From contig JAAXHO010000035.1 of NCBI GenBank assembly GCA_012270795.1, forward strand, positions 1 through 54,154: DNA of 54,154 nucleotides. Direction: 5' to 3'. Positions within the stretch are counted from its first letter, which is position 1; every line of letters begins with the position of its first letter. Of the stretch, positions 30,179 to 33,023 are shown piece after piece. The notes beneath the pieces are model-generated. The model worked only from the letters and a program-made list of their open reading frames with translations, made no database searches and was not told the origin of the DNA. The translations under genes were made by a program, and so were the position numbers. The DNA comes from Candidatus Poribacteria bacterium (lineage in GTDB: Bacteria > Poribacteria > WGA-4E > WGA-3G).

Positions 30179-30664
30179 ATGAAACTTGGTGTCATGTCTG
30201 ATAGTCACGATAACATTCCAAACGTCAAACGTGCTGTCACCCTTTTCAACGAAATCGGTGTGGATCTCGTTGTCCATGCGGGTGATTTCATCGCTCCGTT
30301 TGCGATTGACCCGTTAGCCAATTTGAACTGCCGCGTTGTCGGCGTTTTTGGAAACAATGATGGTGAACGTATCGTCGTTGCAAAACGGTTTGAAGCCATC
30401 GGTGGTGAAGTGCATCCTAACCTTGCCAGCACAACACTTGGCGACAGAACCATCGCTGTGATGCACTATCCTGAACTCGCTATCCTAATAGCAAAAAGTT
30501 GCGATTACGACATTGTCGTCTATGGGCACACCCACAAAATAGACATCCAAAAAGAACAATCGCTTTTACTCAATCCTGGTGAAACTGGTGGTTGGACAAC
30601 AGGCAAATCCACGGTTGCAGTTGTGGACATAGATACACTTGAGGCTACAGTTCATGAACTGTAG
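30179..30664 (+). CDS. YfcE/MJ0936-type metallophosphoesterase
   Basis: The 161-residue calcineurin-like phosphodiesterase has all metal motifs: D7-x-H9 (SDSHDN), GD at residues 35-36 (HAGDF), GNND (about 58-61) and GHTH near residue 116. Family members hydrolyse phosphodiesters such as cyclic nucleotides or bis-pNPP in vitro. The 3' two-thirds is duplicated at 32673-33023, with two blocks (30338-30408 and 30539-30642) identical at the DNA level. Confidence 0.9.
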   Translation: MKLGVMSDSHDNIPNVKRAVTLFNEIGVDLVVHAGDFIAPFAIDPLANLNCRVVGVFGNNDGERIVVAKRFEAIGGEVHPNLASTTLGDRTIAVMHYPELAILIAKSCDYDIVVYGHTHKIDIQKEQSLLLNPGETGGWTTGKSTVAVVDIDTLEATVHEL

Positions 30665-31094: not shown

Positions 31095-31907
31095 ATGACA
31101 CTAATTGTATCAGTTACATCGGCGGATGGCATTGTGATTGCTGGAGATAGCCTTTCTTCGTTGAATAGGCAAATCAATTTGAACCAGTCTAATATGGTTT
31201 CTTGTCCACACTGCCAAAAAGAGCATACAGTGAAAGCGAATTTTCAAGGCAATGTGAGGCAGGCAACCTACTCTTATACCGAAAAAGTTATTCCTTTTTT
31301 AGAAAAATTCGGTATTGGTGTGTACGGATCGGGACTCATCGGCAGTCATTCTGTTAACTTTCTAATACGCTCCTTTGAGCATAATATAAAAAAACAAAAA
31401 AAAGAAATTGATAGTGTTACCGACCTCGCCGAAGAAATAGGTGTTAACTTGCATAATCTTGTAAAAAAACAACTTGATCTTGAAAAAAAATCACTAGATG
31501 ATTTTCCTAAAGGACATGTTTTTCTCGGTTTTCAAATCGTAGGTTACGACGATTTGAAACCTAAAATAATTGAAGTTTTGCTGGGTAAAGATGTCGGATA
31601 CAAGGAATTCTCAAAATTAGGGTGTTATGCATCAGGTAATAGAGAGGTTGTAACGGCAATATGGGAACTCTATAAGAAGCATCCTGAAGGGCATCCAATC
31701 TATGAGGTATTTTCTCTGCAAGAAGCTGTTGATTACGTTGATTTTTTGATTAGTTCAACAATCTCTTTTCAAAGGTTCTCTCCAATAATTCCAAGTGTCG
31801 GCGGGAAAATTGATATTGCCCTTGTGAGACCTTTTGACAAATTTCAATGGATTCGTCAGAAACCACTTGGTGAACTTTTAGATGGAGGCAAACATGAAAC
31901 AAGATAA
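31095..31907 (+). CDS. proteasome beta/HslV-like Ntn hydrolase with inserted Cys-His knuckle
   Basis: The 270-residue protein begins MTLIVSVTSADGIVIAGDS. After Met removal, Thr is residue 1 and Asp falls at position 17, the spacing of the catalytic Thr1 and Asp17 in proteasome beta subunits and HslV. A lysine in TEKVIPF followed by GIGVYGSGLIG matches the Lys33/Gly47 region. It is displaced by about 30 extra residues that contain CPHCQKEH, a possible zinc site. The C-terminal half is helical and unrecognised. It overlaps the next gene by 14 bp and forms an operon with a toxin-antitoxin pair. Proteolytic activity is inferred. Confidence 0.6.
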   Translation: MTLIVSVTSADGIVIAGDSLSSLNRQINLNQSNMVSCPHCQKEHTVKANFQGNVRQATYSYTEKVIPFLEKFGIGVYGSGLIGSHSVNFLIRSFEHNIKKQKKEIDSVTDLAEEIGVNLHNLVKKQLDLEKKSLDDFPKGHVFLGFQIVGYDDLKPKIIEVLLGKDVGYKEFSKLGCYASGNREVVTAIWELYKKHPEGHPIYEVFSLQEAVDYVDFLISSTISFQRFSPIIPSVGGKIDIALVRPFDKFQWIRQKPLGELLDGGKHETR

Positions 31908-32382
31908 GAAAACTAAACCGATTGATACCTATACAGAGGTGACTTTGTCACTTGACTATAGTTTTACTCCTCTCATTCCTGAGATTCCTATATTTCTTGA
32001 GGTGCCGCAAGGTTATAAAACAGCTTCTGTAGGACCAGAGGAACAACCCTTAAGTAAACCCTCTGCTGATTTTAAGGTAATATACTCTCGAATAGTCGAA
32101 ATTGAGGATCCTCGCTTTGAGGAAACCTATACTGCTTATGTAACAAGAACGTCTACTGGATGGAATGGACGAATTCCGGATGTGCCAGAAGTTAATAAGT
32201 GTGCAGGAACTACTAAGCAAGCATTATTGGTAACTCTCAAAGATAATCTCTACGAAGTTCTAAAGGCTCGTTCAGATGCTTGGGACAGGCAAATAGAAGC
32301 GGACATAAAAGCAGGGAAATTTGATGATTTTCGCGATGAAATACTTGAAGATGTTGAGACAGGGAGGTTGACTGATCTATAA
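31894..32382 (+). CDS. HicB-like antitoxin candidate
   Basis: The product is 162 residues from the ATG at 31894, preceded by GGAGG inside the previous gene. Residues 70-130 (TYTAYVTRTSTGWNGRIPDVP, TTKQALLVTLKDNLYEVL) have the strand-strand-strand-helix pattern of HicB. The tail (DDFRDEILEDVETGRLTDL) resembles antitoxin C-termini that wrap RelE-type toxins. The N-terminal 60 residues are unrecognised. A RelE-like toxin frame overlaps its end. Confidence 0.6.
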   Translation: MKQDKKTKPIDTYTEVTLSLDYSFTPLIPEIPIFLEVPQGYKTASVGPEEQPLSKPSADFKVIYSRIVEIEDPRFEETYTAYVTRTSTGWNGRIPDVPEVNKCAGTTKQALLVTLKDNLYEVLKARSDAWDRQIEADIKAGKFDDFRDEILEDVETGRLTDL

Positions 32383-32641
32383 AGCTAATCCTAATTTTTG
32401 GGATTGTTATGACAAACTTCCATCCCGTATTCAAAAACTTGCAGACAAGAAATATGAATTATTGAAACGAGATCGAAGTCATCCTTCCCTTGAATTAAAG
32501 AAAGTCCAGGATTGGTGGTCAGCAAAAGTTGGTGATAACTATCGTGCTTTGGCTTTTGAAACCAAGGAATACTTGGTTTGGTTCTGGATCGGAGACCACG
32601 ACGAGTACATGTCGTTAATTCGTAGTAAGAGGAGGAGGTGA
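32372..32641 (+). CDS. RelE/ParE-like toxin with non-standard start
   Basis: The open frame from 32372 translates as LIYKANPNFWDCYDKLPSRI...WWSAKVGDNYRALAF...VWFWIGDHDEYMSLI (89 residues). It aligns along its length with the toxin at 23496 (NPNFWDCYDKL against LPSFWSAYQKL; VWFWIGDHDEY against TWFWIGHHDGY). The in-frame stop at 32369 and lack of ATG, GTG or TTG before the conserved region leave only CTG 32372 as a near-start, overlapping the antitoxin by 11 bp. It is translated from an unusual start or has lost its start codon. Confidence 0.7.
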   Translation: MIYKANPNFWDCYDKLPSRIQKLADKKYELLKRDRSHPSLELKKVQDWWSAKVGDNYRALAFETKEYLVWFWIGDHDEYMSLIRSKRRR

Positions 32642-32672: not shown

Positions 32673-33023
32673 ATGTTCTGGGAAAAATTCTGTGTCGTCG
32701 GCGTTTTTGGAAACAATGATGGTGAACGTATCGTCGTTGCAAAACGGTTTGAAGCCATCGGTGGTGAGGTGCATCCCAACATTGCCAGTGCCTCACTCGG
32801 TAACAGAAGCATCGCTGTGATGCACTATCCCGAACTCGCCATCCCAATTGCAAAGAGTGACGATTACGACATCGTCGTATATGGACACACGCATAAGATA
32901 GACATCCAAAAAGAACAATCGCTTTTACTCAATCCTGGTGAAACTGGTGGTTGGACAACAGGCAAATCCACGGTTGCAGTTGTGGACATAGATACACTTG
33001 AAGCAAAAATATATGAAATTTGA
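32673..33023 (+). pseudogene. truncated duplicate of the YfcE-type phosphoesterase
   Basis: The 116-residue frame repeats the GNND-to-end part of the enzyme at 30179 but lacks the D-x-H and GD metal motifs, so it cannot be an active phosphodiesterase. DNA at 32697-32767 and 32898-33001 is identical to 30338-30408 and 30539-30642, while the 130 bp between them differs at many positions. The first seven codons come from unrelated sequence after the toxin gene. Confidence 0.85.

Follow-up and report, generated by a model that had tools for sequence, protein, structure and literature searches.

A predicted proteasome-fold hydrolase encoded together with diverse toxin–antitoxin pairs

What might a proteasome-like hydrolase do when its gene stands directly in front of an antitoxin and a toxin? 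The question is raised by positions 31,095 to 32,641 of a contig from a Candidatus Poribacteria bacterium, a stretch of DNA of 54,154 nucleotides whose whole length is referred to here as the window. A first-pass annotation had noticed such an operon there, and the observation has proved to be real. Fuchs, Alva and Lupas described 22 new groups of proteasome homologues in 2021 (WPH, PHI, PMI, PPH and others), and no genomic context hinting at function was found in that survey (PMC8665760). The present family supplies context of this kind. It bears on the questions of how antitoxins are removed and of dedicated proteases in toxin–antitoxin (TA) systems, as an enzyme, a candidate substrate segment and a toxin are brought together in one small operon, short enough for transfer to a laboratory strain.

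The first gene (31095..31907, plus strand) encodes a protein of 270 aa with the N-terminal letters MTLIVSVTSADGIVIAGDS and the translation M-TLIVSVTSADGIVIAGDS. It was examined through its reading frame and translation, its individual residues, hhalign, Foldseek and VIA-align, and dN/dS. Upon the predicted loss of the initiator Met, Thr becomes residue 1 (codon 31098-31100) and Asp residue 17 (31146-31148). Counted with the Met, the equivalent of Lys33 is K64 (31284-31286) and that of Gly47 is G78 (31326-31328), the spacing of 14 between them being the same as in the proteasome, and a Ser129-like Ser-Gly is present as S180-G181 (31632-31637). The motif CPHCQKEH (residues 37-44, 31203..31226) belongs to an insertion that follows the Asp17 equivalent and lies ahead of K64; all these features lie on the plus strand. 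Both the proteasome-like start and the placement of the motif had been pointed out in the first-pass annotation, and both hold. T2, D18, K64 and G78 are invariant across an alignment of 14 homologues, S180 nearly so, and the nucleophile reads MT in all 14 aligned homologues and MS in the relatives L051, L176 and L190. Thr or Ser at position 2 combined with Asp at position 18 occurs in a single one of the 188 window reading frames of at least 60 aa, namely this one. Additionally, a dN/dS of 0.12-0.24 indicates purifying selection on the gene. Given this uniqueness, invariance and selection, the Ntn-type residue pattern is not a matter of chance. The 20S beta active-site residues D166 and S169 have no conserved equivalents, and VGG stands where 20S beta has its S169-G-G segment. 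The CPxC..H insertion is variable: L035 and L037 lack it, in L034 it is degenerate, and in distant relatives it recurs as CPHC (L176) and CPNCGDIH (L190).

Searched on its own against Pfam, NCBIfam, PADLOC and, with phmmer, the PDB, the enzyme gave no match, which places its fold beyond the reach of single-sequence search; there was no significant match to Pfam PF00227 either. A profile search of PDB sequences returned HslV as the sole proteasome-fold match (E 0.8, residues 1-28). With hhalign, the HslV alignment by itself gave E 0.065 over 24 columns, adding 20S beta gave 4e-4, and including the distant relative L051 as well gave 3e-5 at a probability of 73 (family plus L051 against Poribacterial 20S beta plus HslV). 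The residues paired by hhalign were T2 with Thr1, D18 with Asp17, K64 with Lys33 and SG with GSG. AlphaFold models were of modest confidence, with a mean pLDDT of 57 for the first, poor AF2 model and 63 for the insertion-free homologue L037, and their strands and helices follow one another as in the Ntn fold. Foldseek searches with two models placed proteasome subunits in all of the top 50 matches (best E 1.8e-7, the 20S of T. acidophilum), while VIA-align gave the predicted models a Z of 9.5 to 20S and 9.3 to Anbu. An alpha-beta-beta-alpha sandwich is thus supported by both programs, within the modest confidence of the models. Two helices, H1 and H2, are predicted to follow the S3-S4 region, along with a beta-hairpin-like insertion. 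From the hhalign score, the strand and helix order, Foldseek and VIA-align it is concluded that the first gene encodes a divergent proteasome-fold (Ntn) hydrolase. The fold proposed in the earlier annotation, which had named HslV and Anbu for comparison, is accordingly retained together with its intact catalytic residues. Neither of the two outcomes that had been named as fatal to it, a predicted fold other than Ntn or a Thr and Asp that vary among close homologues, was observed.

The enzyme shares its fold and the catalytic Thr1-Asp17-Lys33 with 20S beta, HslV and Anbu, but differs from them in having no significant PF00227 match and VGG in place of S169-G-G, two features that rule out a canonical 20S beta subunit. 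It is not an HslV orthologue, as the HslV of the genome is a separate gene (contig C168) and the hhalign match to the HslV alignment was as short and weak as stated above. The predicted architecture also departs from that of connectase, which has lost H1-H2 and carries a two-helix insertion. Besides this enzyme, the host genome (G000) carries two 20S-like beta/alpha gene pairs (contigs C197 and C215) in addition to HslV. The groups of the 2021 survey resemble the present family in their beta fold, in Thr1 or Ser1, Asp17, Lys33 and Gly47, in the lack of a propeptide and in their occurrence in prokaryotes and phages. Connectase and PMI-5/6 further resemble it through specificity insertions between Asp17 and Lys33 (PMC8665760), and from the sheet numbering of that paper the CPxC..H insertion is inferred to occupy the S3/S4 site used by connectase. 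What sets the family apart from the 22 groups, which were compared by description only, is its repeated TA context and the CPxC..H insertion.

The second gene (31894..32382, plus strand) encodes the partner, a 162-aa antitoxin with an N-terminal extension. It overlaps the hydrolase gene by 14 nt, starting at ATG 31894 (in-frame alternative 31882), and its stop at 32382 falls inside the toxin frame, so that the chain of overlaps described at first pass is present as described. Judged from where homologue alignments start, the extension comprises about 61 aa (31894..32076, plus strand) and is the proposed contact or cleavage segment; the remainder (32077..32379, plus strand) is the HicB-like antitoxin domain common to many stand-alone copies. 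The name HicB-like, taken over from the earlier annotation, finds a match in PHROG, albeit a weak one (HicB-like antitoxin, E 0.04). The third gene (about 32375..32641, plus strand) encodes a ParE-like toxin of 88-89 aa, which matches Pfam ParE_like (PF24732) at E 2e-5, barely above the gathering cut-off; the toxin had earlier been called RelE-like, and it does belong to the RelE/ParE superfamily. No ATG, GTG or TTG occurs near its start. Initiation is likely at a conserved ATC at 32375 (CTG at 32372 being possible), behind GGGAGG at 32362, and the close stand-alone toxin copies L107 and L108 have the identical ATC start. Such a start could hold expression of the toxin low. As is characteristic of type II TA systems, antitoxin genes overlap genes for toxins of known families, in the window and in relatives. 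The whole cassette is flanked by a 308-bp direct repeat of 91.9% identity (window 30335-30642 and 32694-33001): a gene for a YfcE-like phosphoesterase (30179-30664) has its 3' part repeated behind the toxin (32673-33023). In the related genome G002 the cassette stands behind the same YfcE-like gene, and the list of reading frames just downstream holds no second copy.

Homologues of the enzyme were found in Poribacteria, in 11 of 59 relatives and at 13 loci in GTDB contigs, all of them poribacterial; wider relatives occur also in one other phylum and on viral contigs. Searches of plasmid and phage records with the enzymes chosen as queries found no relative. Behind the relatives stand toxins of the ParE/RelE, PIN, YoeB, Fic/Doc and MazF families. 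In subgroup A (the window, L014, L015, L016, L017 and L023) the partner of the enzyme is a HicB-like antitoxin and the toxin is ParE_like, with matches in the window, L015, L017 and L023; L014 is the chromosomal locus of the window cassette in G002, and L016 has no toxin right behind the antitoxin. In subgroup B (L018, L019, L020, L021 and L031) the partner is VapB-like and the toxin belongs to the PIN family, as matched in L018, L019, L021 and L031; only similarity places L020 there. In subgroup C (L022/L034, L035 and L037) the partner is accompanied by an unnamed protein of 136-146 aa. A partner with a GIGLEW-like domain followed by this 136-146 aa protein recurs in type I restriction loci (L022, L035:2514-2930 and L037), and the two are possibly an undescribed TA pair. 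Farther afield, a distant Ser1 enzyme in G048 (L051) is joined by a GntR-HTH antitoxin and by YoeB (E 3e-28). In L176, from the other phylum (G084), the CPHC-bearing enzyme is followed by a 65-aa protein and then by a Fic/Doc toxin (E 9.7e-13), with an ATGA overlap. On viral contigs, the enzyme is followed by an 83-aa protein and PemK/MazF in L194 (E 1.2e-10), by a 122-aa protein and ParE in L200 (E 2e-5), and by a short protein in L190, L192 and L195. The partner has shrunk to a short peptide in L190, L192 and L024/L036, its length in L024/L036 being only 64 aa. Not every relative is so arranged: in G038 a 64-aa protein is all that follows the family member, in G015 there is an antitoxin with no toxin directly after, and the more distant L177, L179 and L181-L183 are not TA-linked.

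A maximum-likelihood tree resolves two deep subfamilies with 100/100 support, each of which contains several toxin types as well as short stand-alone partners. The enzyme-antitoxin-toxin order recurs in other genomes across several toxin families and both subfamilies, and the picture is broader than the single TA pair first reported. The first-pass interpretation is thereby supported in part: the fold, the catalytic residues and the repeated TA link hold, while a protease or amidase activity directed at the antitoxin, and with it control of antitoxin stability, would be a possible role. A binomial estimate of this association is to be read as rough, as it assumed 3% toxin genes and independence and took in 11 of 17 loci, the final count being 12.

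The partners have a further peculiarity at their N-termini. Used as a query, the window antitoxin finds a match in 49 of 82 genomes, mostly in frames of about 105-120 aa, and stand-alone homologues align only from query residue 60-67 or so onwards. Copies aligning from residue 11-16 adjoin the enzyme (G005:C99, G031 and G015), and those of G000 and G002, which align from residue 1, are both enzyme-linked; the exception among long-aligning HicB-like antitoxins is G069, with an interrupted frame. By the author's counts, the association between extension and enzyme linkage has a Fisher p of ~1e-8. For the VapB-like partner the corresponding value is ~0.002, again by the author's counts: matches from residue 1 in G082, G018, G032 and G044 are all enzyme-linked, and the exceptions G019 and G021 (L137/L138), with the extension and no enzyme, represent one syntenic locus. 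In G048 the YoeB antitoxin occurs a second time, and there its N-terminus is different. Extended antitoxins with no enzyme gene nearby occur in G019/G021, G006:C156 and possibly G074/G028, and a search beside them found no remnants of the enzyme gene. Strict confinement of the extension to enzyme-linked loci is rejected, as G019/G021 and G006 contradict it; the extension can, to judge from these genomes, outlive or precede the enzyme. Across partners it measures about 50-80 residues, looks flexible and evolves fast. No one motif unites all extensions, and those of different partners have little sequence in common. A Trp motif is present in 5 of 7 partners of the second subfamily; it was picked after inspection, for which reason a shuffled control is not a fair one.

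Since the extra front segment is mostly confined to enzyme-linked antitoxins, the pattern suggests that the enzyme acts on the antitoxin or is held by it, and the interface is probably the N-terminal extension rather than the antitoxin domain. The explanation preferred here, to which a little under an even chance is given, is a three-component TA module whose hydrolase would make contact with the antitoxin extension and probably cut it. Accordingly arranged along the operon, the first gene would yield a proteasome-fold hydrolase, with Thr1 becoming accessible on removal of the initiator Met, the second, overlapping gene an antitoxin with a standard domain behind its extension, and the third the toxin. 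The active-site cleft of the hydrolase would receive the extension, and under some condition the enzyme would clip or degrade this segment or the whole antitoxin, by which the toxin may be freed or control of the operon reset. The hydrolase-plus-extension unit would have been combined with unrelated antitoxin/toxin pairs. The three-component module is favoured by the fold and catalytic residues, the link to toxins, the pattern of extensions, the short-peptide partners and the precedent of COG2856-Xre systems; counted against it are the low-confidence models, the dissimilarity of the extensions, the enzyme-less extended antitoxins, G038 and G015, the distant relatives without TA genes and the missing D166 and S169. 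The more general proposition, that a portable, dedicated proteasome-fold third component controls unrelated antitoxins, or is controlled by them, via an interchangeable N-terminal segment, is regarded as evenly balanced.

The nearest functional precedent is, by analogy, the COG2856 (ImmA/IrrE) protease-Xre antitoxin-RelE/PIN toxin arrangement, which was proposed as a three-component TA system in 2009 (PMC2701414). It likewise joins a protease gene to an antitoxin and a RelE or PIN toxin, with proposed proteolytic control of the antitoxin. There, however, the enzyme is a HEXXH Zn metalloprotease fused or adjacent to an Xre HTH, whereas here it is a predicted proteasome-fold hydrolase and several unrelated antitoxins are extended; neither HEXXH nor HTH was found in the window proteins, which sets the locus apart from ImmA-Xre-toxin systems. 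In TAC modules an added antitoxin segment (ChAD) can be the site read by a third component (PMC6377645, PMC5105189). The likeness lies in a third gene and an antitoxin extension thought to be read by its product. The TAC component is a SecB-like, non-catalytic chaperone and its ChAD is C-terminal, whereas the present extension is N-terminal and its reader likely a hydrolase; the locus is not a TAC module, its third component being of proteasome fold.

The main rival reverses the roles. The hydrolase would be the dangerous or effector component, and the extension or short peptide an inhibitor sitting in its active site; fusion to the antitoxin would restrain hydrolase and toxin together, and loss of the fusion protein would free both. 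This is judged unlikely. In its favour, enzyme and short peptide occur with no toxin right behind in L024/L036, L190, L192 and L195, the genes of enzyme and partner overlap in the manner of a TA pair (by 14 nt in the window and as ATGA in L176), and extended antitoxins persist where the enzyme is absent, as a redundant inhibitor could. Against this, known proteasome-fold enzymes are mostly quiet outside their assemblies (PMC8665760), and relatives beside housekeeping genes with no obvious peptide partner (L179 and L181) look non-toxic.

Rather improbable is a TAC-like addiction, in which the enzyme stabilises or matures an antitoxin that the extension has made dependent on it. The extension does track with the third gene, as the chaperone-addiction extension of TAC antitoxins is read by a co-encoded SecB-like chaperone (PMC6377645). 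A pure chaperone would, however, have no need of invariant catalytic residues, and an extension imposing dependence would leave the toxin unchecked wherever the enzyme is absent; the enzyme-less extended antitoxins thus fit a protease target or an inhibitor better than strict dependence.

Very improbable is an incidental neighbourhood, created by the accumulation of defence and TA genes in variable islands. Several loci do lie in the hsdS-hsdM interval of type I restriction systems (L019, L022 and L035), and such sites also hold TA genes with no enzyme (L149 and L150). Yet the shared strand, constant order and overlapping genes across several toxin families and two subfamilies, and the occurrence of the extension mainly in enzyme-linked copies, speak against it. 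Least credible of all is a role in modifying proteins, as a connectase-like ligase or a specific peptidase acting through a recognition segment, with the TA neighbour serving only to keep the cassette in the genome. In its favour is the position of the CPxC..H insertion, apparently at the S3/S4 site of the specificity insertions of connectase and PMI-5/6 (PMC8665760). Against it, the insertion is dispensed with in L035 and L037 at identical gene order, and H1 and H2 are predicted here but absent from connectase.

No relevant earlier report emerged when the literature was searched for antitoxins in combination with proteasome homologues or Ntn hydrolases. Three-component TA systems that include a protease or an extended antitoxin have been described before; a proteasome-fold member is, as far as found, new, with the 22 survey groups compared by description only. 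If the three-component module is correct, one enzyme-plus-segment unit would have been reused across toxin families, and the segment would be a natural tag for controlled turnover.

Two minor observations concern neighbouring genes of relatives. In L178 and L190 the enzyme has a SocA/Panacea antitoxin gene upstream of it, the L178 copy being fused to an MqsA-like part. In L184 (G368:C311) a proteasome-fold enzyme stands directly behind a prokaryotic ubiquitin-like system, composed of a Prok-E2_E-like protein, a ThiF/E1 protein and a weak Multi_ubiq match, and is followed by an 831-aa protein resembling a type I restriction subunit.
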